This document shows positions 32,312-62,044 of a DNA stretch of 64,000 bases, piece after piece (the stretch's first letter is position 1; every line of letters starts with the position of its first letter). The notes under the pieces were generated by a model. That model made no database searches. It was not told the DNA's origin and was given only the letters and a program-made list of their open reading frames with translations. The stretch is from Lantana camara (lineage: Eukaryota > Streptophyta > Magnoliopsida > Lamiales > Verbenaceae). The DNA lies in assembly GCA_037501455.1 (NCBI GenBank), contig CM074864.1, forward strand, positions 40,016,001-40,080,000. The letters are read 5' to 3'. A program made the position numbers and the translations under genes.

Positions 32312-33538
32312 TGTAATATCCCGCTCGTCCGGCCGTACAGGTACGCCATATCGAGAGTGTTACTTGCGTATTTAATTATTTATTTATGCCCTTTAAGTGT
32401 TTATTAATTGCTTATATGCCTACTTGAATATTCACTTGTATTATTTGTTACGTTTTATTATGTATTTGAACGTTTTGCCCCCGTTTGATCCCTTTCTTGA
32501 TCCGCATGCCCACGTATTTGTTCTTAATTTGGCACTACATGTTATGCATGAAATACGTGTTTTAAGAACTTGTTTACGTGCCCGTTATATGTTTTTGAAC
32601 TCGTTTGAGGTGGTCACGGACCATTTTGATGATTTTAGGGATTCGAGGTCTTAACTTGCTTTAGCACACCTCATGTTCCGGAAGACATAACTTGAGCTCG
32701 GGAATTGGGATTCGAATTTCGGAAGAAGAGTCGAACTCATAACGATGAAAGGAAGAGAGTCGAACTCATAACGATGAAAGGAAGCCAAGGAACCCAACTT
32801 CGTATTTTCCTAAACCAGTTTGAACCCCTGTATTTTGTCCGTATCGAGCCTCACGTACATTTTTGACCCCCTTGCACTAAAATGGCCAACAAATTGACTC
32901 ATTCTTGGGCTCATTTTCTCCTAACTTAATTCATTTTCCATTTCTCAGCCATTCATTTCATTTTTCAGTAGAGAAAAGGGGGAGAAGCAGCAACCAACCT
33001 AGATAGAGGAAGAGAGAAGAATAACACGATTCCTTTTTAACTTTGCAAGCTTGTTTTACCTCCGATTCACATCAAATTTGAAAGGTAAGTCCGGATTTAT
33101 GTTCTCTATCTCCTCCTCTTTCTTTTAAGTCTAGGTTTTCTGATTTTCATGATCATTTGAGCATGCTATGGATTAATTGATGAATAGTAAGGGTTTAGGG
33201 CCTATATGATGAATTTGAATGAAATCTTGTGTTTCCTTTTGAATTAATGCATGGATTTTGATCCTAAGTTATCCCTTATCATTTGCATGAACCGGTTTTA
33301 ATTCTATCTCAGGATTCATGAAGGTTTTATTCAAGAACTTGGAGCTTTTGTATGATAATGTACATGTTTGATCCCTTTCCCCCTTCCCTTGCATATAGAT
33401 TTAGTTTTAGCTTGGTTTGTGGAATGAAATTGATGCATATTTGTTGAATAATCTTTCCTATGCATGTTGAGTTGAGTTGGGATTGGTTTTCGTTGAGTTT
33501 TTGGGCTGTTTTCGTGTTTTGCCCCTGCTGCCATGAGG

Positions 33539-33748
33539 GGTCGCGGCCGCGATCGCGATCGCGATCGCGACCAGTTTATTTTTGGTCGCAGCAGCGACCC
33601 ATTTTTCCCCTTGTTTCAACTGCAGGTCATGTCTGCGACCATTTTTAGATCTTTTTGGGTCATAACTGCGACCTTGTTTAGGCTTAGTTTCGAGATTCAG
33701 GTCACGGGCCCGACCTTTTCATGAAGAAAATTGGTAGCGGCCGCGACC
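33539..33748 (+). repeat. Tek-7 5' LTR paired palindrome array (GGTCGC...GCGACC)
   Basis: Six units start at 33539, 33584, 33625, 33658, 33700 and 33733 (spacings 45, 41, 33, 42, 33). Best units: GGTCGCAGCAGCGACC and GGTAGCGGCCGCGACC. The first unit is stretched by about 12 bp of extra GATCGC repeats, which accounts for 45 instead of 33. The ORFs across it are artefacts. Confidence 0.9.
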
Positions 33749-34375
33749 ACCCCCTTGCTTCCGCATGTGTTGTTTTACTTCGTTCGTTCGTACTTTGCTT
33801 ACATTTTATGGTTCGTTTATGACTTATATGTTATGTTAACATATAATATTATGTGTTAAGTTATATGTTATGAATTTATGGGTTGATTTACATGCTCGTT
33901 TTTTATTTATGATCTCATATGCCTTATATGCTAACTCAACGTGTATGCATGACTCTAACTTTTGTTTAAGTGCCTCGTTTGATAATTTCTTGCATCTTAT
34001 AGGATATGCATACATAGCTAACTTAGTATATGACGTGTTATGTGTGTTATATGAAACTCATGAAGTCATTTAACGTAAATTATGAGACTTAAAACTTGTT
34101 ATGAATTTGCATGAGTTAAATGACATATCATTATATTTCTTATGCATCATTTGCATTCATATGCATATGCCGAGCATTTAAATGGTTCATTTTGAGTCTA
34201 AGGTTGTCTTTTGATCTTTGTTTTTTCCAGAGATTCGTCCCAACGGAAAGGAGGCGGTCCCTTAGACGTCTTTTAAGTTACTTCGTTCGAGTTGGTCGAC
34301 AAGGTGAGGTTTTCTTGCTTTTAGTTAAAATGACCTACAACCCTACCTGTATTTTTAAGCCCGCATATGACCTAA

Positions 34376-34376
<1 letters not shown>

Positions 34377-34408
<32 letters not shown>
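34377..34408. repeat. (TA)n microsatellite
   Basis: About 32 bp of TA repeats in the Tek-7 5' LTR. The matching place in the 3' LTR (about 62836-62851) has a shorter run. Confidence 0.95.
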
Positions 34409-34410
<2 letters not shown>

Positions 34411-34782
34411 TACGTGTATGATACGCATTTTTTGGGAATTGGCCCTTTTGTTATGAAATTATTTGAAAAAAATCACTTTCGTACATATACGTAACCTATA
34501 TTTTTGTTTGTTTGATTTGAAAAGGGGTTGGCGTGTGTTGTAACTAGCGAGATTTTGACTTTGAAAAGTAAGTCAAGAAAATTATGAAAATTTGAAAATT
34601 ATGAACTTACGATTTATGAATTATGAACTGTGCCCCAGAGTAGTGGTATGGCATCTCGGGTCGGCCGTGGGGTCGCCGAGCTCTGCCATCAACACGACTC
34701 CACTTTGAGAGATTCGCCCAACCTCGGGAGGTCGAGGGGAAGGATGTTTCTTGAGCCGGAAGTTAACCTAGTCGAGGGAGCG

Positions 34783-38852: not shown

Positions 38853-40849
38853 TGTAGCACCCTAATCCCCAGGGCACCACATCCCCCGCACTATAGTCTC
38901 GATCCACGTATGAAATGGAAAGTCCATACATAAACCAAAACTATAGCGAACGGGTGACAATAAAAATGACGAGCTAGGCGGGACACTCTCCCCAACAAAA
39001 CCAGAGCGAACATGATAATGAAAGCGGAAGCAATAAAATCATTCATACATATAGGTACCATATTTACCGAATAGATATGTATAGATACCAACTTAACTAT
39101 CAATACATTATCATCTTTTAATAATATAAATGATCAGGTATCCCTAAAACGTGACAATAATGATTATAACAAAAGATACTAGAAGTGCTTTACATGAAGG
39201 TACGGTACTAGACTCGTGAAAGTGCAAAACTCGACTGGACACCCGCCTAGCACGACCACACGCTCAAGTACCTGAAAAGTGAAGTATCAGTCTACCGAAG
39301 ACTGAGTGAGGGGCAATAAATATATATAACACACATCACATGCAAGGTGTAGCCCCGGGTGAAGACTTTGGAAATGAAAAGGAATATATATAATTCAAGA
39401 AACTTAGTCTTTGCCCGAGATTACAACCAATCACTTTAACATTTTAGCTTAACATTTAATGAACTTGTGACCCCGGCGAGCAGGGGCGATTCTCCAACCT
39501 TTACACCAAACGTGACAATACGTGCTTGCTTTATCAGTTCAGTACATGATCATACAATTCCAATTAGTGTTCACATAGACAGTTTCATGCTTGAAATCAT
39601 GCAATAACCCGAGGATAACCCGACATCCCGGATTAATCCCCAGTTTCCTTCTTCCTCCGGTTGATAGCGAGTTTGCAAGGCTCGACTATCCACGACATGT
39701 TGTGTGTAGAGGACTTGACCCTCTAGACACGGAACTCCTTCCACCACTAATCTCCTAGTGGCTTCGGGGGTGATCCCAACAATGTGAGGATAATTCAAGA
39801 GTTACCCGTCAGCCCTTGCTTTCCCCGTTGGCTCAAGAATTACCCTCGGGCCCACGTCCAATCATGTACTCGCCGAACTTGCTTGAAATCATGACAATCA
39901 ATACTTTCTTGCTTGAAATGTTTATAACTTTGAAAACGTTTATAATTAAAATAGGTTTTGGCCGAAAATAGCACATAAGGGTGGTAGGGTTCTATAAACA
40001 TAACCTAAAACCCCACATTTTCTTACAAAATATGACAAGGATATACTCTACTGAGCCTGCTTCTCGTCCACGCCCTCTTGACCTGTGCAAACACGACGTG
40101 TATACGTGAGACAAGACCTAACATGGACCAAATATGACGAACGACGGAAATGTATCGAGATGACGATGAAAATGCAATGTGGCATGATAACATGTTGTTT
40201 CACTTCATAGTAACACATATTATAGCAATTCGGGGTCAAAGAAGTCGTCGGATCGAGGGGTCAATTTCGTAATTTTATGCAGTGAATTTTGTTCTGCAAG
40301 TCAGGTGGGAACGGCCGTTCCGGTCCCCTCTGACAAATGGGAACGGTCGTTCCCGTAATCCCCAAAAGCGCACCAATGATTTCTTTTTCAAAAACGCGCC
40401 TTACCTGGGAACGGCCCTTCCGGCACTAAGGCCAAAATGGGAACGGCCGTTCCCACAATGCCTTGAGGCTGGGAACGGTCGTTCCCAGTTCTGCAACTGA
40501 AGAAAATAGAGCAGAACAGGGGAAGGTTACGGGAATGCAAACAAAACCACCCAAAATCTATTTTTGATCATCAAAGCCAAAGTTTTCTGGGAATATACAT
40601 GCATATAGGTTCATAAGATGATAAACTAACACTCTAAACACTTAAAACACAAAATACCATCAAGAATTCAAGTTTCAAACTTATGATCAAACTTGATCAT
40701 TCATGCCAAATATCCAAGGATTCAAGCTATAACTCATGGCACAATTCATGAAATGATCTCATAATCATACCTCTAACTTCAATTAATTCATCTAGCTCAA
40801 AACGCACACGTGGCGTGCTTACCTGTTCATCCGGAACCGGGGCGTTACA
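38853..40849 (-). repeat. Tek-9 3' LTR (1997 bp, internally deleted)
   Basis: Compared with the other LTR it lacks about 620-640 bp (47231-47849 equivalents), joined near 40792. The missing part includes the leader exon and splice donor. It also has one palindrome unit fewer. GCTAGGCGG at 38973, CCGCCTAGC at 39243, acceptor next to 39271, CAGTC-loop-GACTG hairpin at 39288-39304. Confidence 0.9.
40307..40486 (-). repeat. Tek-9 3' LTR palindrome array (GGGAACGGCCGTTCCC)
   Basis: Five units start at 40307, 40339, 40407, 40439 and 40471 (spacings 32, 68, 32, 32). Units are GGGAACGGCCGTTCC, GGGAACGGTCGTTCCC or the decayed GGGAACGGCCCTTCC. They lie in the putative LTR intron. Confidence 0.92.
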
Positions 40850-40866
40850 ACTCTCCCCCCCTTAGA
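40850..40866 (-). promoter_or_regulatory. Tek-9 polypurine tract
   Basis: Minus-strand CTAAGGGGGGGAGAGTT directly before the 3' LTR start TGTAACGCCCC. Confidence 0.85.
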
Positions 40867-40887
40867 AGAATCTGGTACCCAGATTCT

Positions 40888-43707
40888 CTAGTCTTGTGTG
40901 AACAACTCCGGGTGGAACCGTTTCATCTTATCTTCTGTTTCCCACGTCGCTTCTTCGGTTTTGTCACTTCTCCACAACACTTTAACCATGGGAATTCTCC
41001 GGTTTCTCAACTCCTGAAATTTCCGATCCAAGATTCTAACCGGCCTCTGGACAAATGTCAAATTCGGTTCCAGCTCAACTTCTTCCACGGGGAGAATCGT
41101 GGTCTCATCGGGGTAATATTTCCTTAATTGTGAAACATGAAACACGTTGTGAATCCCCATAAGACTCGGTGGTAGGTCCAGTCGATAGGCTACCTCGCCT
41201 ATTCTTTCAAGAATCTCGAACGGACCTAAGTAGCGAGGATTAAGTTTTCCTCCTTTCCCGATCTAGGTGAAACCTTTCCTTGGTGACACCTTCAAGAATA
41301 CCCGATCACCAACTTCGAATTCTTGATCTCTTCTGCGCTTATCGGCATAGCTCTTTTGCCTATCTTGCGCGGCTTTCATCCATTGTTGAATCATTTGTAC
41401 TTTCTCAATCATAGCCTGAACAACTTTAGAAGGCCTTTCGAATCTTTCACCTTTCTTTACCCCTTCCTGTTTCGACCATTTCCATTCTTCCAAGTCGAAG
41501 AACAACGGAGATAGGCACTTTCTTCCATAAAGAAGTTCATAAGGAGCCATCCCGATCGAAGCCTGAAATTGTTATAAGCAAACTCGATTAAAGGAAGTTG
41601 TTCTGCCCACGAGTTCTGAAAATCCATCGCGCAAACCCAAAGAAGATCTTCCAAATATCTGATTAACCTTTCGGATTGACCGTCGGTTTGAGGGTGAAAT
41701 GCCATACTGAACTTAAGTTTCATCCCCCACACGGCCTGTAACTCCTGCCACAACTTAGAAGTAAACCTCGTGTCTCGGTCTGAAACGATGCTCACCGGAA
41801 TACCATGAAGTCGAATAATGTCTCTGTTATAGATTTCAGCCAACTTTGGAATCTTATAGGACATCCGGACCGGTAAAAAGTGAGCAGACTTTGTAAATCT
41901 ATCCACAATTACCCAAATTCCATCAAACCCGACTTTAACCTTCGGTAATCCAGAAACAAAGTCCATCGTTACTTGTTCCCACTTCAACTCGGGAATAGGT
42001 AACGGTTGTAGAAGTCCTGCGGGCTTTTGGTGCTCAGCTTTCACTCTCTGGCAAGTCAAGCAATGTTTCACATATTCTGCCACGTCTCTTTTCATCCCGT
42101 TCCACCAATAATATTGCTTCAAATCCTTATACATTTTATTTCCTCCCGGGTGGATCGAGTAGGTTGACTTATGAGCTTCTTCAAGTAGGACCCGTTTCAA
42201 TTCTTCAGGTATTACCACTCTGTTTTTAAAACGAAGTAACCCGGTCTCATCAAACCCAAACGGACTCTCCGGGTCATCCTTAGCTTTACTTATAAGCTTC
42301 TGAACTTCCGGATCCTTATTCTGAGCCTCAAACAACTGATTCTTTAATTCCAGCTGAATTGTGATATTGGAAACCCGAGCTTTTAGGATAATTGGAGCAA
42401 CTTCATCGCTTTCCTTTATTTCCAAACTCGATACACTCGCCTTCCTGCTAAGTGCATCAGCGACCACGTTTGCTTTCCCCGGGATGGTATTTAATTGTAC
42501 AATCATAATCCTCTAGCTTTTCCATCCATCGTCGTTGCTTCATGTTCAACTCTTTATGTGTGAACAATTATTGGAGGCTCTTGTGGTCGGTACAAATCTC
42601 AAAGGAAGTCCCGTAAAGATAATGTCTCCATTTCCCGAGAGCAAAGATCACGGCTGCAAGCTCTAGGTCGTGTGTTGGATAATTCCTTTCATATTCCTTT
42701 AGCTTTCGGGAAGCATAAGCGATCACTTTTCCTTTCTGAGTCAGAACACAACCTAAGCCTTCTTTAGAAGCATCTGTGTACACTGCATACTCCTCTGAAC
42801 CCTCGGGTAAAGTTAACACCGGAGCTGAGACTAACTTTTCTTTCAAAAAGTTAAAGCTTTGATCACACTTCTCGTCCCAGACAAACTTAACATCTTTCTT
42901 TGTCAATCGGGCCAACGGTGCAGCAATCTTAGAAAAATCCTGAACGAACCTTCTATAATAGCCGGCCAATCCCAAGAAGCTTCTAATTTCCGAGGCATTC
43001 TTTGGTTTCTCCCACTTGAGCACGGCCTCGATTTTCGAGGGATCGACTTCCAACCCTTTTCCTGAAATTACATGTCCCAAGAAGGAAACCCGATCGATCC
43101 AAAATTCACACTTGCTAAACTTAGCAAACAACTGATGCTCTTTCAGACTCTGAAGAACGAGCCTGCGATGTCTCGCATGCTCCTCGGCTGATTTTGAGAA
43201 AACCAGAATATCATCAATGAAAATCACCACAAACTTGTCGAGAAAAGGCCTGAAGATCCGGTGCATCATATCCATGAAAGCTGTAGGGGCATTAGTTAAT
43301 CCAAACGGCATAACCACGAACTCGTAGTGCCCGTACCGAGTATTGAATCCTGTCTTAGGAATATCCTCTGCTCGAATTCGCAGCTGATAGTATCCCTGTC
43401 TTAAATCCAATTTTGAATAAACTTTGGAACCCTGAAGTATATTGAATAACTCCTCGATATGTGGGAGGGGATACTTGTTCTTAATAGTCATCCGGCTCAA
43501 CTCCCTATAGTCGATGCACATTCTTAAAGTTTCGTCCTTTTTCTTTACAAATAGAACTGGTGCTCCCCAAGGTGAAGAACTCGGTCGAATGTAACCAACT
43601 TCCAACAATGCTTCCAGCTGAACTTTTAATTCCTTTAATTCCGCTGGAGCCATCTGGTATGGAGTCTTTGAATACGGCTTAGCATTCGGGAAAAAGATCG
43701 ACCACAA
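40888..43707 (-). pseudogene. Tek-9 pol: reverse transcriptase, RNase H, integrase, chromodomain
   Basis: Reverse transcriptase begins with [14 protein letters not shown] and has MCIDYRELS and the catalytic [10 protein letters not shown]. RNase H has [12 protein letters not shown]. Integrase has the zinc finger (His, His, CLTC), [16 protein letters not shown] and DGQSERL. The chromodomain-like tail ends EATWETEDKMKRFHPEL. Lesions: TAA at 42568-42570, a one-base insertion near 42479, a small deletion with frameshift near 41570, TAG at 41263-41265, besides the gag/pol frameshift near 43690. It aligns along its length with Tek-1 pol. Without these lesions gag and pol would form one long frame, as is usual for this lineage. 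Confidence 0.95.
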
Positions 43708-44986
43708 ATTCGATCTCTCGCTCAGGAGGCAAAGAATCCAACTTTTTTGGAAATACCTCGGGAAACTCCTTTACCACTTCGGTGTCCTCTAATTTCACCT
43801 GATCCTTGGGCTTGTTCAGAATGTAAGCAATGAACCCTGTAGCCCCGTCTCTGACTAATTTCTGAGCTTCTGAAAAAGAAAGTAGAGGTACGGTCCTCGA
43901 AGTACAGCCCGTGATAACCTCTGAACCCAACTGAACCTTCTTAGCCCGACAATCAACTGTAGCACAATGCCGGTATAACCATTCCATCCCCAATATAGCC
44001 CCGTATCTCTCCATTGGCATAACAATGAAATCTGTCAGAAACTCCCGACCTTCAATCACCACTGGAACATCCCTGTAAACCTGATCCGTCTCTCGCCTAC
44101 TACCGAAAGGAGTACTAACTAGATAGCGCACAGAAGTACACATAGCAGGCAAAGACAAAGTAATAGCAATAGAGTGCGCAAGAAAAGAGTGTGTAGCTCC
44201 TGGATCAAATAATGTATGGATGTTCGTGCCATGGATGCAAATAATACCTTCAACTACCGCTGCGGGATCTATCTCAGCTTCCTGCTCCTCCCCAGTGAGT
44301 GCATAAGCCTGGGCTCTCACAAGTGGCCTCGGACCTGCAGGTGGCGGATCCCGACGATCCGGACAACCGTCAACCAAGTGCTCGTTGCTCCCGCAGATCA
44401 AACATAAGCCTAACCGGTGTCTGTAGTTATCATAGTTGTGTGTAGGAAGCCCACAATATCTGCAGCCCGGTCTCTGAGGTGGCTGTGGTGGTGCTGGAGC
44501 TCTAGAAATATACTTGTTTCTGAACTCCCGTACGAAGACCTCCCAAGTAATCTCTGTCCCAGCTGCCTCCAAAACGATCTGGGTGCTCTCCCACCAAGAA
44601 TAGGCCTCGCCCTGAATAAGAGTAAGTGTACAGCGAGCCTTCTCCTGGGTATCACAAGGGATAAGCTGCCAGATCCTCTTGATCTCCTTCAGCCACATCT
44701 CTGCCTGAATATCGTCGCCCTTGTAGAACTTCGGGGGACGCTGGTTCTGAAATTCTCGTAATATGGTAGAAATAGGGTTCTCCTGAAGTGCTACCGGTGC
44801 TGGCGGGGGTGGAGGAACCCTGTCTTGTAGCCTCTGATCAATTAGCCCCACTACCGCGTTCATGAAATCCTGGGGCTGTGCCTGGTCAGGTGGAGGAGGT
44901 GGTGACCTCTCCCGACGATGATGTCGGCGATGATGATGTTGCCTATGTCTCGAGGCTCGGTTACTGGAGTGTCTGTCGTGCTCCAT
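43679..44986 (-). pseudogene. Tek-9 gag-protease
   Basis: 435 codons from ATG 44986. The N-terminus is rich in His/Arg and Pro. The capsid-like gag domain (KFYKGDDIQAEMWL, GEAYSWWES) is cut short: after FRNKYIS it jumps to a Pro-rich linker, so a large part of gag is deleted. Two zinc knuckles follow, the second canonical (CLICGSNEHLVDGC). The protease motif reads LFDPGATHSF, where DSGAT is expected, so Ser is replaced by Pro. The frame ends in DLFPEC because five T's replace four near 43690, shifting pol out of frame. Confidence 0.92.
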
Positions 44987-45218
44987 CCTGAAATCAGATC
45001 ACTACACATGCGTGGCTTGATTAATAAATGCAAATGTGTGCATATAATTCAACAATGTTAATAAACACACATTCAGGAAGAATCAAATAGCTCAAGTAAG
45101 GCAAAAATTCAAGTAATCAAGTAATTCAGTGAAATGCAGACTCTCAAATATCAAATAATCCTATGCCGTGCGACCTAGACTGACTTAACACGAGTCGAGA
45201 ACCTTGGTTTTGCAACCG

Positions 45219-45231
45219 GTCTCTGATAACA
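45219..45231 (-). promoter_or_regulatory. Tek-9 primer binding site (tRNA-iMet type, one change)
   Basis: Minus-strand TGTTATCAGAGAC, eight bases after the 5' LTR end. The canonical plant site is TGGTATCAGAG; one G is replaced by T. Confidence 0.75.
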
Positions 45232-45658
45232 CCTGTAGATGTAGCACCCTAATCCCCAAGGCACCACATCCCCCGCACTATAGCCTCGATCCACGTATGA
45301 AATGGAAAGTCCATACATAAACCAAAACTATAGCGAACGGGTGACAATAAAAATGACGAGCTAGACGGGACACTCTCCCCAACAAAACCAGAGCGAACAT
45401 GATAATGAAAGCGGAAGCAATAAAATCATTCATACATATAAGTACCATATTTACCGAATAGATATGTATAGATACCAACTTAACTATCAATACATTATCA
45501 TCTTTTAATAATATACATGATCAGGTATCCCCAAAACGTGACAATAATGATTATAACAAAAGATACTAGAAGTGCTTTACATGAAGGTACGGTACTAGAC
45601 TCGTGAAAATGCAAAACTCGGCTGGACACCCGCCTAGCACGACAACGCGCTCAAGTAC

Positions 45659-47297
45659 CTGAAAAGTGAAGTATCAGTCTACCGAAGACTGAGTGAGGGG
45701 CAATAAATATATATAACACACATCACATGCAAGGTGTAGCCCCGGGTGAAGACTTTGGAAATGAAAAGGAATATATATAATTCAAGAAACTTAGTCTTTG
45801 CCCGAGATTACAACCAATCACTTTAACATTTTAGCTTAACATTTCATGAACATGTGACCCCGGCGAGCAGGGGCGATTCTCCAACCTTTACACCAAACGT
45901 GACAATACGTGCTTGCTTTATCAGTTCAATACATGGTCATGCAATTCCAATTAGTGTTCACATAGACAGTTTCATGCTTGAAATCATGCAATAACCCGAG
46001 GATAACCCGACATGCCGGATTAATCCCCAGTCTCCTTCTTCCTCCGGTTGATAGCGAGTTTGCAAGGCTCGACTATCCACGACATGTTGTGTGTAGAGGA
46101 CATGACCCTCTAGACACGGAACTCCTTCCACCACTAATCTCCTAGTGGCTTCGGGGGTGATCCCAACAATGTGAGGATAATTCAGGAGTTACCCGTCAGC
46201 CCTTGCTTTCCCCGTTGGCTCAAGAATTACCCTCGGGCCCACGTGCAATCATGTACTCGCCGAACTTGCTTGAAATCATGACAATCAATACTTTCTTGCT
46301 TGAAATGTTTATAACTTTGAAAACGTTTATAATTATAATAGGTTTTGGCCGAAAATAGCAGATAAGGGTGGTAGGGTTCTATAAACATAACCTAAAACCT
46401 CACTCTTTCTTGCAAAATATGACAAGGATATACTCTACTGAGCCTGCTCCTCGTCCACGCCCTCTTGACCTGTGTAAACACGACGTGTATACGTGAGACA
46501 AGACCTAACATGGACCAAATATGACGAACGGCGGAAATGTATCGAGATGACGATGAAAATGCAATGTGGCATGATAACATGTTGTTTCACTTCATATTAA
46601 CACATATTATAGCAATTTGGGGTCAACGAAGTCGTCGGATCGAGGGGTCATTTTCGTAATTTTATGCAGTGAATTTTGTTCTGCAAGTCAGGTGGGAACG
46701 GCCGTTCCGGTCCCCTTTGAAAAATGGGAACGGTCGTTCCCGTAATCCCCAAAAGCGCACTAATGATTTCTTTTTCAAAAACGCGCCTTAGCTGGGAACG
46801 GCCCTTCCGGCACTAAGGCCAAAATGGGAATGGCCGTTCCCACGCTCGGCCGCCTTGTTTTAGTTTAAAAGAGGGGAACGCCCGTTCCCACAATACCTTG
46901 AGGCTGGGAACGGTCGTTCCCAGTTCTGCAACTGAAGAAAACAGAGCAGAACAGGGGAAGGTTACGGGAATGCAAACAAAACCACCCAAAATCCATTTTT
47001 GATCATCAAAGCCAAAGTTTTCTAGGAATATACATGCATATAGGTTCATAAGATGATAAACTAACACTCTAAACACTTAAAACACAAAATACCATCAAGA
47101 ATTCAAGTTTCAAGCTTATGATCAAACTTGTTCATTCATGCCAAATATCCAAGGATTCAAGCTATAACTCATGCCATAATTCATGAAATGATCTCATAAT
47201 CATACCTCTAACTTCAATTAATTCATCTAACACATAATTCCCAAACCCTAACCATATCAAATATGAGGAAGAATCATCACTTCCATGCAAACCAACC
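45659..47297 (-). other. Putative intron inside the Tek-9 5' LTR
   Basis: Minus strand: donor CAAG|GTTGGTTT at 47297 (weaker than in other LTRs), CTGAT branch-like site within the CAGTC/GACTG hairpin, acceptor TTTTCAG|GT. About 1.64 kb, holding the palindrome array. Confidence 0.45.
46694..46921 (-). repeat. Tek-9 5' LTR palindrome array
   Basis: Six units start at 46694, 46726, 46794, 46826, 46874 and 46906 (spacings 32, 68, 32, 48, 32). The extra unit relative to the other LTR (GGGAACGCCCGTTCCC at 46874) comes with about 48 bp of sequence and keeps the 32-bp pair spacing. Confidence 0.92.
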
Positions 47298-51343: not shown

Positions 51344-52665
51344 TGTAACATCCCGCTCATCTGACCGTACAGGTACGCCGTACCGAGAGTGTTATGTGCA
51401 CGTTTAATTATTTATTTATGCCCTTTAAGTGTTTAGTAATTGCTTATGTGCCTACTTGAATATTCACTTGTATTATTTGTTACGTTTTATTACGTATTTG
51501 AACGTTTTGCCCCCGTTTGATCCCTTTCTTGATCCGCATGCCCCCGTATTTGCTCCTAATTTGGTGACTACGTGTTATGCATAAAATAAGTGTTTTAAGA
51601 ACTTGTTTACATGCCCATTATATATTTTTGAACTCGTTTGAGGTGGTCACGGACCATTTTGATGATTGTAGGGATTCGAGGGCCTAACTAGCTTTAGCAC
51701 ACCTCTTGTTCCGGAAGGCATAACTTGAGCTCAGGAATTCGGATTCAAATTTCAAAAGAAGTTTCGGATTCATAAAGAAGAAATAAATCCAAAGAACCTA
51801 ACTTTGTATTTTTCTAAGCCCGTTTGGACCCTCGTATATCACCCGCATCGAGCCTCACGTGCATTTTTTACCCCCTTGCACTGAAATGGCCATATCTCCC
51901 TCAATTGTTGACCAAATTGACTCATTCTTGGGCCCACTTTCTCCTTACTTAATTACCTTTCCATTTCTCAGCCATTCATTTCATTTTTTAGTAGAGAAAA
52001 GGGGGAGAAGCAGCAGCCAACCGATATAGAGGAAGAGAGAAGAATAATACTATTCCTTTTTCACTTTGCAAGCTCGTTTCACCTTCGACTCGCATCAAAT
52101 TTGAAAGGTATGTCCAGATTTGTGTTCTCTATCTCCTATTCTTTCTTTTAATTCCATATGTTCTGATTTTCATGATCATTTGGGCATGCTATGGATTAAT
52201 TGGTGAATAGTAAGGGTTTAAGGCCTATATAATGAATTTGAATGAAATCTTGTGTTTTCTTTGGAATTAATGCATGAATTTTCATCCTAAGTTATCCCTT
52301 ATCACTTTCATGAACGGATTTTAATGGTATCTTAGGATTCATGAAGGTTTTATTCAAGAACTTGGAGCTTTTATATGATAATGTACATGTTTGATCGCTT
52401 TCTCCCTTCCCTTGCATATAGATTTAGTTTTAGCTTCGTTTGTGGCATGAAATTGACGCGTATTTGTTGCATAATATTTCCTTTACATGTTGAGTTGAGT
52501 TGGGTGTTGTGTGCAGAAATTGCATGATTTTAAGTGTTAAATAGATGATATTCTGGAGCCGTTTGATGCGTTTATGTGTTTATTTGACTCAGTTCAGGTG
52601 TCATTAGAGTTGGAGATACGAAACAGCGAAGCAGAGCGATTTCACGCATTTTTGGAAGAAAAAGT

Positions 52666-52877
52666 GGTAACTCCTGTTACCATTTAGCAGTACTAAAGGA
52701 GTAACTCCCGTTAATAGCCACAGGAGAACGGTTTTGACGAGAACAGAGGGGTAACGACCGTTACCCCTACGCAGAAGGAATTTGGTAACGCCCGCTACCA
52801 GTAAAAGCGTTAAGGCAATTTCAGGCCATTAACGGGCGTTAACGATGGCAAGGCAAAAATTGGTAACGCCCGTTACC
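52666..52877 (+). promoter_or_regulatory. Ath-1 U3 paired palindrome array, 5' LTR
   Basis: Six units of GGTAACGCCCGTTACC type start at 52666, 52700, 52750, 52784, 52828 and 52862 (spacings 34, 50, 34, 44, 34), so three pairs. The last unit ends 29 bp before the TATA box. The other LTR has identical spacing. Confidence 0.92.
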
Positions 52878-52906
52878 TAGGGCGGCGAGAAGTCTCCTAG
52901 GGCTGC

Positions 52907-52914
52907 TATATATG
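52907..52914 (+). promoter_or_regulatory. Ath-1 5' LTR TATA box
   Basis: TATATATG directly downstream of the palindrome array and upstream of a purine-rich leader; the same box lies at 60876-60883 in the 3' LTR. Confidence 0.7.
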
Positions 52915-54000
52915 TGCGTTTTTTGGAGTCCTTAAAAAAGAGGAAAAAAAAAGAGGAGAAGAAGGGAGAGACGCCAGAGAGAGTCAGAGAGAGAAAAAGA
53001 GTGTCCCTTCCAAGTTCAGACCTAGAGTTTGGAAGAAGACTCTGAGGTTCAGAAGATTTTCAGAGAATTCGAGAAGACGATAGGATTGAATTCCGAGAAC
53101 AATCTTTGGTTTTATTGTTGCTTTAATTCCTAAACTAATTCCTTTGATATTTAGTTTTAGTTTTTATATTAGTTTCGTTCTTGAGTTTTGCTGAATGTTT
53201 ATGAGTTTAATTGCTAGACTTTATTTAGATTCGTTGACCATGATTTATGTTAATGCAGTTTCCTTTAGTTTTATGATTTTTGCTTCAATTATGAGTAGCT
53301 AATTATCTAGGGCTAGGGGCAAGTGATGATGATTGCATGATGGATGTTTGATGAGATACTTGAATGACTTGTGTTAATTCTTAGTTTGAAAACTGGTTTG
53401 AATTAACTTGCGAAGGCCTGATCATCCGTAGCATGTGTCACAATTACCTATAAATCGAAAGAGTGATGGTAGTTTAGAGGGTTTTCAATACTTGTGAGTT
53501 GTATTTGGTCCTAGATTATACAACAGTAATCTTATTCCATGTCGAGCCGCTAGAATACTGAATTACACTAGTCTTGTTCCTATGGTTTAATTAACCATTG
53601 GTGATAGCGAGAGCAACATTGAACAATAATTAAGCACTTGGTTACACCTCGAGAGAGGGTAATTCAAATATAAGTGACTAGGTTGTAGAATTACACTTGT
53701 CAAACGGGTATCACATTGGCTCTTGATTGTATGATTCAAAGCTTTTTCTCCTGCCTGTTTAGTTTACTCAAGTAAATTCGCGTATTTAAATTTTTAATTG
53801 CAATTTTAGTTTCTTAATGTCTACATCAGTAGATTAATAGAAATAACCTTGAATTCGTTCAGTCTTTAGATTAGAGGGAAATAGAGAGTAGTGATTGATT
53901 TCCCTTCCCTGTGTGTTCGACCCTATTATGCTACGCGTATGTTAGTGTACACTTGCACGATTGGTTTTTAACTGTAGTAAAATCAGATACAACAAGTTTT

Positions 54001-54018
54001 TGGCGCCGTTGCCGGGGA
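54001..54018 (+). promoter_or_regulatory. Ath-1 primer binding site (tRNA-Asp)
   Basis: TGGCGCCGTTGCCGGGGA, six bases after the LTR end, the usual Athila-lineage primer site complementary to the 3' end of tRNA-Asp. Confidence 0.92.
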
Positions 54019-54151
54019 AGGCGTTTTAAGTCAATATTACTCAATTGTTTTGATCTAGTACTTTAGACTATTATTTTACTTTGTGTTTATTATCCTTGTT
54101 ACTGTGGAATTGGACTGAGGAATTCTTTTTCTTTGTGCAGGTTTACAGTGC

Positions 54152-55204
54152 ATGCGAAGAGCTCAAGATCCTGACTTAGTTCCATACGATCCGAAAATTG
54201 AGAGAACACTGAGTGTTATTAAGAGAAGAAATAAGAAGGAGAGAAAACCAATTTCTTTACCGATAGCTGAAGCAGACCGACCACCGCCACCGGCTATAAG
54301 AGATTATAACGTACCGCAAGCTGGAGCAATTCAGACTGCAACTTGTCCACCGATTGCAGCAAACAACTTTGAGATTAAACCAGCTATCATAAATTTGTTG
54401 CAGAATAATCCGTTTTCAGGACTATCTCCGGAGGATCCAACTTCACATTTGGAGTATTTTTTGGAAGTTTGTGATACCTTCAAACTTCATAATGTCACTA
54501 CTGATGCTATCCGAGTTAGGCTTTTTCCCTTTTCACTTAGGGATCGAGCTAAAGCATGGCTGAGTACTGTCCCAAATGAATCCTTTCAGACTTGGGCAGT
54601 ATTATCTCAGGCTTTCCTAGCAAAGTTCTTTCCACTTAGCAAAACCACGAAGTACAGGAATGATATCCAAGGTTTCAGGCAGTTGGATGGAGAGTCTTTC
54701 TATGAAGCTTGGGAAAGATTTAAGGATTTGCAGAAGAAGTGTCCACATCACGGAATTCCCGGATGGTTATTGATTCAGACTTTTTATAATAGGATATCCC
54801 CTACCTTTAGAGGAGCAATGGATGCCGCAGCTGGCGGAGCATTCTTAGCCAAATCTGAAGCAGTTGCTACTGAGTTATTGGACAATATGTCAAAGAACGA
54901 TGTTTTTATGCATGAAAGGAGCCATTCGCAACCAGCGAAGGTGCAAACAGGAGTCATAGAGTTAGATGGCTTAACCGCCATCAATGCTAAATTTGATGCG
55001 CTTAACAAGAAATTGGACCAACTAACTGTCAATGCAGTTGCGATACAGTCCCAACCAGTTCAGGTAACATGTGAAATCTGTAGTGGTCCACATGATTTTA
55101 ATATGTATCCTCATACCAATGCAGGAGAACAGGTGCAAGAGCAGGTGAACTACGCAAATAACTTCAAACCAGCAAATGATCCCTACTCAAACACCCCAAC
55201 CTAG
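54152..55204 (+). pseudogene. Ath-1 gag
   Basis: 350 codons from ATG 54152, which follows a pyrimidine run and acceptor-like TTTGTGCAG|G at 54140. The capsid domain runs from NNFEIKPAIINLL (about residue 70) through RLFPFSLRDRAKAWL, FLAKFFPL, GESFYEAWERFKDL and IQTFYNRISP to DAAAGGAF (about residue 230), all typical Athila gag. A zinc-knuckle remnant (CEICSGPHDF) is incomplete. The frame ends at TAG 55202-55204 because of a small deletion near 55190; homology continues in another frame. Confidence 0.92.
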
Positions 55205-56369
55205 GCCACAGTTCCCACCAAGGCAGCAATTTCAACCACGACCACCAGCCCAATTTAATGTTGCACCACCTCAGCAGGGGCAGAAGCCGGGTTGGGAGGT
55301 TGCACTTGAAAAGTTCATAACAGTGTCTACAGGTCGACATAAGAAGTTGGAAGCCCAAGTAGATCAAGTGGTAAATCAGACCAAAACTTTGGAGATTCAG
55401 ATTGGTCAGATTGCCCAATCTTTGAATCTGTGAGGCCCAGGAATGCTACCAAGCCAAACTGAAAACAATCCAAAGGAGTAATCCCAGGCCATAGTTGTAG
55501 GAGACAATAAAGATACAGAAGAACCGAACGAGTGTGCAAGTTCGGATGTTAAGGAGGTTGTGTTTGAAAAAGGAGTACTTGAGAAGGCTGATGAGAAAAT
55601 TGATTTTGAGAATGAGAAACTGGAGGAAGAAGTGATTCAAGAGGTGATTTCAAGCAAGGAGAAGGCTGAGAACTTCACTACTGTGATACTTACAGAGGAA
55701 TGCAGTGCTGTTATTCAGCATAAGTTTCCTCCAAAGCTTAAAGATCTAGGGAGTTTTTCAATACCCCTTACTATTGGTTCTTTACAATTTCATAATGTTC
55801 TATGCGATTTAGGAGCTAGTGTGAGTTTAATTCCATTATCTACTTGTAGGAAATTGGGAGTGAAGGAGCTCACGCCGACAAATATGACATTCCAATTAGC
55901 AGATAGATCGGTGAAATATCCGATAGGAATTTTGGAAGACATTTTGGTAAAAGTTGGAAAATTTCATATTCCCACTGATTTTGTAGTTCTTGATATGGAG
56001 AGCGATGAGAGGATGCCATTGATACTTGGAAGACCATTTCTGGCTACGGCCGGAGCAAATATTGATGTTTAGAATGGACGACTCACATTCAAAATAGGAG
56101 ATGAAAGAATGGAGTCCAGGAAGTTTGGTCCCAGGACACCATCCGCAAGTCCAGATAAGTGTTGCATCATTAAGGTTGTCAATAATACGCCCGAAGGAGA
56201 AACTCTGTTTACGGAGCAAAGAGTTGCAGTTGATTGGCAGAGAGGAACGAAGTTTCAGAGTGCGAGAATGAAGGATGCTTTGGATTTAGATACTTGGAGA
56301 TCAAGCTCTGGGTTCGAGAGTAACAAGAACGAGGTCACTCCTTGTGACTCGTTGCTTGGGAATTACTAA
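55176..56369 (+). pseudogene. Ath-1 gag end and aspartic protease
   Basis: Continuation of gag in frame 3, interrupted by TGA 55431-55433, TAA 55479-55481 and TAG 56070-56072. A Pro/Gln-rich linker and a short coiled-coil-like stretch (about 55305-55430) lead to an acidic Glu/Lys region and then the protease: LCDLGASVSLIP near 55800-55835, LADRSVKYP, PTDFVVLDM, PLILGRPFLATA. After the third stop the frame stays open to 56369, with no match to reverse transcriptase, and ends at GNY*. So pol is missing as a unit rather than decayed in place. Confidence 0.88.
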
Positions 56370-56816
56370 TCCTAGATTGGTTTCTGTAGTCAAGCTAACG
56401 ACTATAACTTAGAACTAACTTTATCTTTTTTCCTTTTCTCTTGTTTTGTTTTTGTTTCCGTTATTTTCGTTCCTGTAGTCCTTGTTTTCTCGGAATAATT
56501 GAGTTGTCTCTCTCGTTGCAGGTAACTTGATGGGTGTACTAGGTAGCCAGGTGCTAGATGGTGAGAGGGCTGTGATTTGAGCGTCATTGTCAATATTGAG
56601 GTCCATTTAATTTGTTAGTATGTTTGTGCATGGTTTAATTGTATTGATTGAGGAGAATGAATCGTTGATATGAATTGTTCAAGGTAATTATGTGTTTATT
56701 TGAAAATGGTGCACTGTGATTTGATTGAATATTATGAGTTAATTTCAGTTGATTGACGTGATTGAGCACCATTAGTTGTGTGTTTGTATTTTACATAAGT
56801 TTTGGGCGGAGTCTTG
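56370..56816 (+). other. Ath-1 non-coding spacer
   Basis: Between the protease frame and the internal palindrome array I see no coding or repeat structure. AT-rich. Confidence 0.6.
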
Positions 56817-57020
56817 AGTAACGTGCGTTACACCATTGTTAGTAATTTTTTTGTAACGCCCGTTAATGAGATCAGACATACCAGTTACTGAATGTAATGG
56901 GCGTTACACCATTGTTAGTAATTTTTTTGGTAACGCCCGTTAATGGACACAGGCGTGTTGGCCGACAGGGGTAACACTCGTTACCCCTTTGTCTTAGGAA
57001 CACCGGTAACGCCCGTTACC
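56817..57020 (+). promoter_or_regulatory. Ath-1 internal paired palindrome array
   Basis: Six units related to GGTAACGCCCGTTACC start at 56817, 56852, 56893, 56929, 56970 and 57005 (spacings 35, 41, 36, 41, 35): three regular pairs, the same plan and unit as in the LTR. A 76-bp tandem duplication covers units 1-4 (GCGTTACACC... at 56825 and 56901). It lies about 95 bp upstream of an internal TATA box. Confidence 0.92.
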
Positions 57021-57113
57021 GGTCCAACTGACGGAAATTGGATTTTAGGACCACGTTTTTAGGGTTAATTTAAGTCTTGTCCTACCTAATTTCGGTTTTC
57101 TTTCCCCCAAACC

Positions 57114-57671
57114 TATAAATACACTTGCACCCACTTATCCCACCTTACTAGAGATTCAATTGTTCCTTTGGGTCAATCATCTTCAACTAACAAGCAAGAA
57201 GCTTCCGCACCAAGTTTCATTCTTTACTCTCTTGTGAATCAAAGTAAGTTACCACTCCTTTGTCTTAGAGTATTTTTTTTTTGAAGTTAATTTTTCCAAT
57301 CTAAGGGATGAGAATTAGGATTGAATTGCGCGTTAGAGTTCTCCATGAGATTAAATTGATGAATTTTGGGAGGTTAACTATGCTAGAATTAGGATTGATG
57401 TTCTAAATTGAAGTTAACTTGAATTGGGTTAAAATTTTGAAGAATCCTAAAGTTCTAGGTAGCCTTGTTTTTGAATTTCGGAGTTGAAGGTAGAGAATTA
57501 TGAGGTTGAATTGTAGTAATTAAGCTAGTGTGAATTTGAGATTGAATAGCGTGAATAACTTGAGTTAAGACTAACCCACTAGGCTTAAGCACACAAGGTG
57601 TTTGATGAATTGTCTATGTGACTCGTGATTGATTTCTTGGTGCTTTGCTTTGCTATCATTGTTTGATTCAG
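57114..57671 (+). promoter_or_regulatory. Ath-1 internal promoter and leader intron
   Basis: TATAAATA at 57114-57121 is followed by a C-rich, then AT-rich leader. Donor TCAAA|GTAAGTTACC at 57244 and acceptor GATTCAG|GTACA at 57670-57671 define a 428-bp leader intron ending six bases before ATG 57677. The sum suggests an independent transcript for the accessory ORF. Seen: the motifs. Inferred: their use. Confidence 0.6.
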
Positions 57672-57676
57672 GTACA

Positions 57677-58909
57677 ATGGGTCGCACTAAGCGCTCTAAA
57701 GTCCCGGAACCTTTCACTACGTCATCCAGATTAGACCACCAACCTCTTGGGTCGGATAACGTAACAGTTAATGTCTTTGGGAACCCTTTCCAAAGGAATC
57801 CAACAAAGAATATTGTGGGTACTAAATTCTTCGACCGGATGGATAGATTGGAGGTTTGGAATAAAGTGCGGAAGCTTTTGAATAACATAGGTTGGTTGCC
57901 TTTTTTTGAAAGGAGGGATATGACTTATGGAGATATGACCGCTGCTTTCTTCCATACGATGAATTTTGATCCGGTAGACAACACTTTGACCTTCACTCTT
58001 GATGATATGGAGACTCGGACTTGGAGTGTGAGCAGAATTCGAGAGATTCTTCGGTTTCCAGCCAATGCCACCACTTCTTTACCCAGATGGAGCGAGACTC
58101 AGCGAGAGGAGGTGTGAAGATCCTTTCCCTTGAGGGAGGGTGTTCCTAGTTATTCTCCCCGGAGCATGCATGACAGCTATTTTGACTCTTTGACATGGAT
58201 ACTAGTCCATAGGGTTTTAGCCCTGGGATTCTATGCCAGATATGGGAGAGATAGCCATATTACAGAAACTGAGTTGGGCATCATGTATATGATGAAGGAA
58301 GGTATTAAGTTCGATGGTACGATCGAGTTCCTTTGGAAGCTGCAGGAAAGTGCGGGGAGTGTGACGGGCACGATTGCTCATGTAGGCTTTGTGACGATGT
58401 TTGCTAGAGAGATGAACTGGACACCGAGAGGGGCTTTGCCTATCAGTTTTGGACATACTGGTCCAGAGTACTTAGAGACCGTAGGCTTAGCTATACCTTG
58501 GGAGAGTGGAGAGCTGAAGCATAGTGTTCTGCCATGGTGGCCTATCCATGAGAGAGATCATTTCTGGCAAATGTACAGCTGGGGGATAGCCTGGTTCGAT
58601 GAGCTTTCTGCGAGGCAGAGGGAGCTCTTGGCTCGGATTCCTGACCGGCCTGATGATGAGTTTGCGGTTTTTCGCAATGCCACACCTGTTATTGCCGAGG
58701 TTAGTGACGACACTCCCGTGACTTTGAGAGACGTACGTGCAGAGTTAGCAGGATTGAGGGCTGACTTAACCACCGTTATTGCTAGAGTTGAAGATTTGGC
58801 ACATTATGTAGATAAGCGATCCAACGAGAGGACGGCCGAGTTGGAGACCAAGTTTGACGGGTTCAGTGCTCGCTTGGATAAGTATTTTAGAGGACCCCCA
58901 TCGCCCTGA
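57677..58909 (+). pseudogene. Ath-1 accessory ORF (Athila ORF1-like, 410 codons, one in-frame stop)
   Basis: Starts at ATG 57677 (MGRTKRSKVPEPF), chosen over 57629 because of the acceptor site just upstream. One frame runs to TGA 58907-58909, broken only by TGA 58115-58117 (codon 147), which may be CGA changed by CpG decay. The N-terminus is basic. The middle (FDRMDRLEVWNKVR, FFHTMNFDPVDNTLTF, WSVSRIREILRFP, WILVHRVLALGFYARYGR) resembles the plant proteins of unknown function linked to Athila (ATHILA ORF-1 type). The C-terminal 60 residues (VRAELAGLRADLTTVIARVE onward) look like a coiled coil, so a dimer is plausible. No RT, integrase or membrane segment. Function unknown. Confidence 0.7.
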
Positions 58910-60473
58910 TTTTGTTATCTTGATATTTTTCTCCCAGAGTTCTAGACATTTGTTTCGTTTATGCTTTACTATGTTTGGATATTTGTCTACACTTGACTTT
59001 TTGCTATGTTCAGTTTTCTGACTTGGTTTATGCAATGGAGCTTTTATTTTCATGAATTTATGACTATTATTATACTTGTTGGATGCATGTTGATTATCAA
59101 TTGCCTGTGCACTTGATCCGTGTTTTTAGTCACTTGTTCAGGTTCGGAAGCATAGCAAGCATGTTGCCGGTTCGTCAATAATCAGGAAGTTTGCTAACCC
59201 TTTAATTCTTTCAATTGCATGAGGACATTGCAAAGTTTAATTATGGGTGAAGAATGTGCATTCTTGCCATGAGCTTTATTGAATATTTGCATGAGTAGAT
59301 GTAATTTCACTTGTAAATTGCTAAAATTCGAGTAATTTTGAAAATGTTGAAAGTTTTCCCTCATTTTGAACTTTTTCTTTGAAGTTTGATCATTGAGCTT
59401 TTGCTAGAATAAGTTAGGCTTTTTGAATTGAAGAAAGTTGCATGAGATTTGATGATTTTGTGTGTTAGTAAGCCCTTATAGTTTGAGCACTGTTTTACGA
59501 AATAATGTACTTAACTTAGAGAGATGAGTTGATAATTTCCGAATAAGTCTAAGAGTTGATTAGGATGCATTTTAGTCCTATCGAGGCGAAATTTTGAATT
59601 AATAAAGGACTAAGGAAGTGAAGTAGGCAGTTGTTGTCGGAGGATTTTTAGTTTTTTTTCTATTTAGCCGTTTCTCACTAAATAACGCAAACCTATTGAC
59701 CCAGCTGAGCCTAATTGTTGTGCAAAGATTTTTGTAGCCACATTATAAGCCAAGGCACAACATAGAATTACCTACCTTGATAATTTTGTTCACCAAGGCT
59801 TGCTCATTTGATTCGGTATGACGAGTATCTATTCTTAGACCCCTTTTTATTTGTTCATGCGATTGATTGAGAATGAGGAGTCATTGAAAAAAGAAAGAAA
59901 ATGAAAAGAGAGTGAAAAGAAAAGATATGAAAAGAGAAAGAGCAAAGAAGAAAAACAAAATAAGATTGTGCAAAGGGTGAATTTGAAAGTGTGGGATTCA
60001 ATTGAAGACTGGGGAAAAATTCTTAGTGTTAATGGTGAATAGAAGTGTCCATGTGTTGATTAGAATAAATGATGTAAGCTTGGTGAGTAGTCACTTGATC
60101 CAATTTTCCGTAACCTTACCCTAAGCCTACATTACAAGCCCGAAAGACTTACTGATCCGAAGTCTCGATTTAATTCCATTAGTGGAGATAGGTGCGAAGA
60201 GTGTATTCCGAAGTTGATGATTGGAGCTTAGGAGTAAATTGTGAAGTTGTCGTTTTAATTTTTGTACATTGTATCGTTTGACTCACACACTACACAAGGG
60301 TTTACTTTTCATAATAAATTTTGAGGATTTCCTGTTTATGAGTATTTGATTTGATTGGCTAGACTTGTTTAGGCGAAGGTTGATGATTGCTTAGAGGAGA
60401 AGGTTTGATGAGGATGTGTGCACTCAATTTTTGTATTACTCGTGGACGAGCAATGTTCAAGTGTGGGACATTT
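58910..60473 (+). other. Ath-1 3' non-coding region
   Basis: No ORF of note. A purine-rich AAAAGAAAGAAAATG-like tract lies at 59884-59960. A CCTTACCCTAAGCCTACATT block near 60113-60132 is typical of Athila 3' regions. Next to the LTR, CAAGTGTGGGACATTT (about 60458-60473) is the likely polypurine tract. Confidence 0.6.
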
Positions 60474-61982
60474 TGTTGTGTGTAGAAATTGCATGATTTT
60501 AAGCGTTAAATAGATGATATTCTGAAGCCGTTTGATGCGTTTATGTGTTTATTTGACTCAGTGCTGGTGTCATTAGAGTTGGAGTTACGAAACGGCGAAC
60601 CAGAGCGATTTCACACATTTTTGGGAGAAAAAGTGGTAACTCCCGTTACCATTTAGCAGTACTAAAGGAGTAACTCCCGTTAATAGCCACAGGAGAACGG
60701 TTTTGGCGAGAACAGAGGGGTAACGCCCATTACCCCTACGCAGAAGGAATTCGGTAACGCCCGTTACCAGTAAAAGCGTTAAGGCAATTTCAGGCCATTA
60801 ACGGGCGTTAACGATGGCAAGGCAAAAATTGGTAACGCCCGTTACCAAGGGCGGCGAGAAGTCTCATAGGACTGCTATATATGTGCGTTTTTGGAGTCCT
60901 TGGAAAAGAGGAAAAAAAAGAGGAGAAGAATGGAGAGACGCCAGAGAGAGTCAGATAGAGAAAAAGAGTGTCCATTCCAAGTTCAGACCTAGGGTTTGGA
61001 AGAAGAATAAGAGGTTCAGAAGATTTTCAGAGAATTCGAGAAGAAGACAGGATTGAATTCCGAGAACAATCTTTGGTTTTATTGTTGCTTTAATTCCTAA
61101 ACTAATTCCTTTGATATTTAGTTTTAGTTTTTATATCAGTTTCGTTCTTGAGTTTTGCTGAATGTTTATGAGTTTAATTGTTAGACTTTATTTAGATTCG
61201 TTGACCATGATTTATGTTAATCCAGTTTCCTTTAGTTTTATGATTTTTGCTTCAATTATGAGTAGCTAATTATCTAGGGCTAGGGGGAAGTGATGATGAT
61301 TGCATGATGGATGTTTGATGAGATACTTGAATGACTTGTGTTAATTCTTAGTTTGAAAACTGGTTTGAATTGACTTGCGATGGCCTGATCATCCGTAGCA
61401 TGTGTCATAATTACCTATAAATCGAAAGAGTGATGGTAGTTTAGAGGGTTTTCAATACTTGTAAGTTGTAGGGTACAAAGAGATTTGGTCCTAGCTTATA
61501 CAACAATAAACTTATTCCATGCCGAGCCGCTAGAATAATGAATTACACTAGTCTTGTTCCTATGGTTTAATTAACTATTGGTGATTGCGAGAGCAACATT
61601 GAACACTAATTAAGCACTTGGTTACACCTCGAGAGAGGGTAATTCAAATATAAGTGACTAGGTTGTAGAATTACACTTGTCAAACGGGTATCACATTGGC
61701 TCTTGATTGTGTGATTGAAAGCTTTTTCCCCTGCCTGTTTAGTTTACTGAAGTAAATTCGCGTATTTAAATTGTTAATTGCAATTTTAGTTTCGTTACTT
61801 GTTAATTTCTGCATCAGTAGATTAATAGAAATAACCTTGAATTCGTTTAGTCTTTAGATTAGAGAGAAAAAGAGAGTAGTGATTGATTTCCCTTCCCTGT
61901 GGGTTTGACCCTATTGTACTACGCGTATGTTAGTGTACACTTGCACGATTGGTTTTTAACTGTAGTAAAATCAGATACAACA
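60474..61982 (+). repeat. Ath-1 3' LTR (1509 bp)
   Basis: Same ends as the 5' LTR. TATA box at 60876-60883. A few more differences lie in the U3 part than in the rest. Confidence 0.92.
60635..60846 (+). promoter_or_regulatory. Ath-1 U3 paired palindrome array, 3' LTR
   Basis: Units start at 60635, 60669, 60719, 60753, 60797 and 60831 (34, 50, 34, 44, 34), identical spacing to the 5' LTR. Unit 4 is the perfect GGTAACGCCCGTTACC where the other LTR has GGTAACGCCCGCTACC. Confidence 0.92.
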
Positions 61983-62044
61983 TTGGGATTGGTTTTGGTT
62001 GAGTTTTTGGGTTGTTTTCGTGTTTTTCCCCTGCTATCGTGAGG

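Follow-up and report, generated by a model that had tools for sequence, protein, structure and literature searches.

The long terminal repeat (LTR) retrotransposon Ath-1 of Lantana camara carries two arrays of the same paired palindrome, one just upstream of its LTR TATA box and a second upstream of an accessory open reading frame (ORF), and we read both arrays as a selected module that would serve two promoters. Ath-1 lies in a stretch of 64,000 nucleotides (assembly GCA_037501455.1, contig CM074864.1, positions 40,016,001 to 40,080,000 of the forward strand), hereafter the window, to which our coordinates refer. We consider it somewhat better than an even bet that the two promoters stand under one control, with a binder supplied by the host driving genomic RNA and accessory mRNA together. 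The two-array layout as such is known from Sireviruses; its occurrence in an Athila-like Ty3/gypsy family, the arrangement of the units in pairs, and a conserved candidate internal promoter are new.

Two arrays of one palindrome in Ath-1

Scanning for GGTAAC-N4-GTTACC with up to three mismatches placed six palindromes in the 5' LTR (starting at 52666, 52700, 52750, 52784, 52828, and 52862), six at the internal site (56817, 56852, 56893, 56929, 56970, and 57005), and six in the 3' LTR (60635, 60669, 60719, 60753, 60797, and 60831), and the positions and spacings given for these 18 units in an initial annotation of the window were correct. From start to start, the units are spaced 34/50/34/44/34 bp in the LTR array and 35/41/36/41/35 bp in the internal array. 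The 29 bp noted earlier between the last LTR palindrome and TATATATG (52907; likewise 60876) are right, and the distance from the end of the internal array to TATAAATA (57114), previously put at about 95 bp, measures 93 bp. The palindrome has a GTAAC/GTTAC core and a centre that is mostly GCCC or GGGC, with CpGs present in most units (CGCCCG or CGGGCG).

The whole window contains 45 motif matches versus 19.4 expected and a maximum of 35 in 100 shuffles, while each 421-bp array stretch holds six units versus a shuffle mean of 0.13-0.14 and a maximum of 2-3 (2000 shuffles). Genome-wide, exact sites number 8013 versus 35 for the reversed control. Across family copies, the two units of a pair start 34-35 bp apart at both internal and LTR arrays, and the step between pairs is 41 bp in the internal array and mostly 45-51 bp in the LTR array. 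Since the step is fixed inside pairs and variable between them, the geometry points to the pair of palindromes as the putative binding unit.

Between its LTRs, Ath-1 is ordered as gag, protease, linker, internal array, TATA box, putative leader intron, and accessory ORF:

52505-61982, + strand: whole element, delimited by two LTRs plus a target-site duplication
52500-52504 (left) and 61983-61987 (right): target-site duplication TTGGG
52505-53994, + strand: 5' LTR, 1490 bp, starting with TGTTGTGTG and ending with CAACA
52666-52877, + strand: LTR array of three palindrome pairs (six units of 16 bp each), kept in relatives
52907-52914, + strand: LTR TATA box TATATATG, 29 bp past the array, TATA-like at the aligned place in relatives
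54001-54018, + strand: primer-binding site TGGCGCCGTTGCCGGGGA as read from the letters, which we take to match the 3' end of plant tRNA-Asp
54152-55204, + strand: gag, PF03732 (E 3.1e-19)
55560-56072, + strand: aspartic protease, PF13650 (Pfam)
56817-57020, + strand: internal palindrome array, six units in three pairs
57114-57121, + strand: internal TATA box TATAAATA, the same in 10/10 far copies of the Ath-1 clade
57244-57671, + strand: predicted leader intron, donor GTAAGT at 57244-57249 and acceptor AG at 57670-57671
57677-58909, + strand: accessory ORF with a basic N terminus (MGRTKRSK), a predicted C-terminal helix, and an in-frame TGA at 58115-58117
60474-61982, + strand: 3' LTR, 1509 bp
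60635-60846, + strand: 3' LTR palindrome array, with TATATATG at 60876

The two LTRs share 94.5% identity. Ath-1 is inserted into another repeat, and a paralogue of its flanks at 32312-34672 presents the empty site, matching at 86% identity on each side of the uninterrupted positions 33477-33481.

Retention of the arrays and the candidate internal start

The accessory ORF had been described as open over 57677-58909; these coordinates stand, the open frame does not, with the TGA splitting it into two pieces of one frame, 57629-58117, in which the ATG lies at 57677, and 58130-58909. All copies described here come from the genome to which the window belongs (1.27 Gb), in which the second piece gave 145 scored matches out of 2450 first-look candidates, namely the window copy and 144 others at 75-91% identity. 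Five consecutive ORF copies at G000 C2:88938914-88959889, the first four of which step by 4758-4764 bp, suggest that a portion of the element was amplified in tandem.

We followed the internal array in 50 ORF copies, comprising 29 near (L006-L034) and 10 far copies (L035-L044) of Ath-1, a pol-bearing relative (L054/L063), and 10 copies from the clade of the latter (L066-L085), chosen from 125 scored matches. It was present in 44 of them (near 25/29, far 10/10, pol-bearing relative 1/1, its clade 8/10), in L042 only partially with three units, and this agrees with the earlier statement that the module is kept. The remaining six hold different DNA at that place: in L010, L016, L026, and L033 the alignment to the family begins only further inward, L078 lacks any match to the element there, and in L084 another repeat fills the stretch up to just before base 599. 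The foreign DNA in L078 carries a cluster of ACACGTGT palindromes.

The LTR array was sought in 21 copies (the 10 far copies, L063, and the 10 of its clade) as at least four units with up to three mismatches each, and was found in 16, the weakest being that of L083 with two exact and two poor units; one tally gives 17, which includes one chance unit in L036. Among the misses, comparison with 13 LTR references from both clades matched nothing in L036, L041, and L073 and a single stretch of 32 bases, away from the array, in L038, and in L085 the LTR sequence ends just before the array with other DNA beyond. Both arrays were seen in 15 fetched copies besides the window, with the same motif at both sites. 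The scan uses the Ath-1 motif, so that an array with a changed motif would score as a miss, and no miss looked so; motif turnover was rejected as a cause of the misses, as other DNA occupies the places inspected. A recent origin of the internal array by copying from the LTR was likewise rejected, as the spacers differ and the array is present in both clades.

Reverse transcriptase (RT) and integrase (INT) had been reported as missing from Ath-1, and neither indeed follows its protease. Furthermore, in 7/7 upstream stretches of other copies (L055-L061; four far and three near), the end of gag-protease runs straight into the same linker, again with neither enzyme. Thus, the pol-less layout is common to the family and not a lone wreck. 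The pol-bearing relative, fetched in part as C1:10166100-10174900, has its LTR arrays separated by about 11.3 kb, shares both kinds of array with Ath-1, and carries, in L054, protease (PR), RT, RNase H (RH), and integrase in the gypsy order PR-RT-RH-INT. Its ORF shares 34.9% identity with the window's second ORF piece (E 5e-51), in matches that fall in different frames, this copy being broken. By this order, read in L054 with the window element itself lacking pol, we assign the family, which we call Athila-like, to Ty3/gypsy. A further relative, L086 (C1:3849200-3855100), has LTR arrays, gag, and protease, without pol, accessory ORF, or internal array; the ORF-less junction is spanned at 5 of 40 scored places including L086, the other four at 80-83% identity.

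Conservation across clades was assessed between the Ath-1 clade (window, L040, and L035) and nine copies of the pol-bearing clade, with L042 aligned but excluded from the identity count because of its partial array. Identity reached 0.829 in the palindromes and 0.926 in their TAAC/GTTA cores, compared with 0.470 in the in-array spacers, 0.502 just downstream of the array, and 0.353 in the leader, and it returned to 1.000 in the splice donor. Within the Ath-1 clade, the TATA stretch of the 10 far copies is identical to that of the window (1.000).

Consistent with the predicted leader intron proposed earlier, a GTAAGT donor lies within 330 bp after 42 of 44 internal arrays (none for L015 and L019) at a motif background of 0.199 per kb per strand. 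Its distance from the start of the last palindrome is 190-261 nt, and at least 232 nt in all but one. The 105 nt before the donor are poor in ATG, with 1 per 2415 nt in near and 1 per 1050 nt in far copies, compared with 184 per 9200 nt and 64 per 4000 nt, respectively, in the intron; an acceptor sits just before the ATG of the accessory ORF. The near-fixed position of the donor and the ATG-poor leader, together with the TATA box in the Ath-1 clade, mark the stretch after the internal array as the putative first exon of a candidate internal promoter.

Nine frames in the family are open over at least 380 aa, and seven of these were compared pairwise (L009 and L012 left out). The ratio of nonsynonymous to synonymous divergence (dN/dS) was 0.16-0.29 between subfamilies, at a synonymous divergence (dS) of 0.34-0.72, and ranged from 0.21 to 1.08 between close copies; judged by these estimates, the accessory ORF is under purifying selection between subfamilies. 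The basic N terminus was confirmed, and most of the open frames share it with the distant relative as MGR-T/S-KR. Where a C-terminal coiled coil had been proposed, the single-sequence structure model of 58118-58906 predicts a helix, which could dimerise; elsewhere the model is unreliable (mean predicted local distance difference test, pLDDT, 39.9; 21/263 residues score at least 70, and these lie near the C terminus). Pfam scans of the two window pieces and seven relatives yielded nothing above cut-off, and a protein database search with the second piece returned 986 candidates, none at E 0.001 or better. Below the cut-off, PF03078 (ATHILA ORF-1) matched L008 (E 0.12) and L040 (E 0.014) weakly, the best at 14.7 bits versus a cut-off of 20.2, and it was not listed in these scans for the five other relatives or the two window pieces. 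Nor did they list PF20167 (Transposase_32). Comparing profiles with the PF20167 copies found in this genome gave E 0.12 against 0.72 for the reversed control and was not used, and the first 1.5 kb of eight PF20167-type ORF loci contained 0-2 Ath-1 motif matches each, all with three mismatches and no array. In one such copy, L045, the 1.5 kb preceding the domain holds several different palindromes rich in CGG/CCG.

What may control the two promoters

We propose that the paired array of 16-bp palindromes acts as an upstream activator of the LTR TATA promoter, and that the second array of the same palindromes would drive an internal promoter yielding a short spliced mRNA for the accessory protein. 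A dimeric protein would bind each palindrome, and the constant 34-bp step suggests that neighbouring dimers cooperate within each pair. With a hypothetical host transcription factor as the shared binder, genomic RNA and accessory mRNA would be synthesised simultaneously and in the same cells.

The evidence leans to such a host factor over a self-encoded one, because LTR arrays are also found in the relative that lacks the ORF, and other gypsy elements carry them with a different half-site. For instance, the window itself contains the following comparison element:

38853-47229, - strand: gypsy-type gag-pol element, LTRs at 38853-40794 and 45240-47229

Its LTRs carry GGGAAC-N4-GTTCCC palindromes at 40307-40486 and 46694-46921, with closest neighbours 32 bp apart, and its internal part shows no sense ORF of at least 100 aa beyond gag-pol. 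A further gag-pol element seen in part (L053/L062, C1:405985-413371) has GGGAAC-type palindromes spaced 31/42/32 in arrays that recur about 7.3 kb apart. Exact GGGAAC-N4-GTTCCC sites number 40342 genome-wide versus 21 in the control, and a third half-site, GGCAAC-N4-GTTGCC, is at background (15 versus 21). As a lead only, GT-3 trihelix proteins might be considered as host binders, as they bind GTTAC and GT-3a/GT-3b dimerise (PMC4267404).

Several observations weigh against the host-driven two-promoter module. The GTTAC lead fits the Athila palindromes and not the GTTCC ones, and both promoters are candidates read from sequence alone. The internal TATA box was recognised in the Ath-1 clade alone and not seen in the aligned pol-bearing clade, where three ATGs occur in 945 nt before the donors, with only 305 nt of intron for comparison. 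The alignments were anchored on the palindromes, copies inside a clade share ancestry within the single genome sampled, and conservation across clades is fairly good immediately upstream of the array as well (0.680). Furthermore, inside the Ath-1 clade the palindromes do not outdo all flanks, which makes the footprint weaker: identity to the window in palindromes, spacers, and flanks is 0.895, 0.862, and 0.925-0.940, respectively, for the 25 near copies and 0.806, 0.579, and 0.753-0.805 for the 10 far copies. The weak palindrome signal in young copies would be expected if drift follows insertion in most of them and CpGs are quick to mutate. Finally, one copy (L084/L085) lost both arrays to other DNA.

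Self-regulation, in which the accessory protein or its complex binds the palindromes at both promoters in the manner of foamy-virus Tas, or lifts silencing as VANC does, seems to us unlikely, if still worth pursuing. In its fullest form, the protein would be a sequence-specific regulator of the LTR and of its own internal promoter in a positive loop, and pol-less copies would keep gag, protease, and regulator because the latter sustains transcription of the family; this extension we regard as equally doubtful. Internal array and ORF are indeed kept together and both gone in the ORF-less form, the ORF shows purifying selection between subfamilies while 7/7 checked copies lack pol, the protein has a basic N terminus and a helix that could dimerise, and Tas offers a precedent (PMC8670036). 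However, the motif stays constant while the protein drops to about 35% identity, and the LTR arrays occur in the ORF-less relative and, with the other half-site, in other gypsy elements, which speaks against the VANC-like self-targeting that the initial annotation had considered beside a host factor; moreover, no DNA-binding domain was found by the Pfam scans, at their cut-off, or in the poor structure model.

A chromatin role, with CpG boxes resisting or attracting methylation or positioning nucleosomes at both starts, appears improbable. Such a role would suit the CpGs of most units and has a parallel in the Sirevirus boxes, which form CpG islands (PMC2829016), but the best-kept part is TAAC/GTTA with its fixed 34-bp step, which a CpG effect alone would not need. 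We hold it very improbable that the ORF is translated from spliced LTR-initiated RNA and that the internal array is a duplicated relic. The acceptor just before the ORF ATG, the splice acceptors predicted for ENV in BAGY2 and Athila (according to PMC2829016), and palindromes kept no better than some flanks in the Ath-1 clade would all be compatible with this; a relic, however, would decay like the spacers, whereas across clades the core retains 93% identity versus 47% for the spacers, and the near-fixed donor distance and ATG-poor stretch indicate a first exon. Chance or an assembly artefact is excluded for practical purposes by thousands of sites genome-wide and by shuffles far below the observed count.

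Relation to known systems

Foamy viruses resemble the proposed module in having two promoters, one in the LTR and one internal, with the difference that Tas is a described transactivator (PMC8670036) and the ORF here is only a candidate binder. Like Ath-1, VANDAL21 with its VANC protein combines an extra protein with a short motif that clusters in non-coding DNA of the element itself; VANDAL21, however, is a DNA transposon, its motif YAGTATTAY is not palindromic, and related VANC proteins recognise different motifs (PMC5735166), whereas here the same motif is retained at about 35% ORF identity. In foamy viruses, the internal promoter precedes accessory genes.

Extra ORFs at a comparable place have been described for other plant elements. 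Those of Retand (TRP28; PMC11963269) also lie between pol and the 3' LTR, but antisense, whereas the ORF here is sense, and the aORF of sunflower Athila (PMC11728184) occupies the same place but carries Transposase_32. Pol is also missing from most Athila gag/env elements of Arabidopsis, and purifying selection acts on the Gag and Env ORFs that some of them retain (PMC2410132), which recalls the family studied here; in contrast, the main text of that report uses "palindrom" and "promoter" 0 times and describes neither arrays nor an internal promoter. The accessible portions of studies on anti-silencing by LTR elements describe no such arrays (PMC12844716, PMC12859917, PMC11728184), and in the open-licence literature, as far as its texts were available, we found no report of a two-array layout in Athila or other gypsy elements.

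The closest parallel is provided by the Sireviruses (Bousios et al. 2010, PMC2829016), in which many copies of a palindromic box precede the TATA box of the LTR and further copies stand just before the env-like ORF, ENV. The boxes of the linker occurred in 9/9 box-carrying elements with ENV and in 0/4 without, and an internal ENV promoter was proposed, although its authors did not identify it conclusively (PMC2829016). The two-promoter layout, which had been considered notable in itself, is therefore not without precedent at the level of its two sites. Several features nevertheless set the family here apart: Sireviruses belong to Ty1/copia, with INT before RT, whereas RT precedes INT in L054; their palindromes have a CGG-CCG core (with one exception, Tnd-1) instead of TAAC/GTTA; and here the units are paired 34 bp apart, with the donor, the ATG-poor leader, and the TATA box of one clade outlining a candidate internal promoter. 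The Sireviruses gave a hint as to the expression and role of env-like or accessory ORFs in plant retrotransposons, and the arrays make this question directly testable, since they can serve as short baits for DNA-binding proteins and fit into small reporters. That a second superfamily shows the same logic, with another palindrome, units paired at a fixed step, and a conserved first-exon layout, suggests that Sireviruses and Athila-like elements may have arrived independently at one design.

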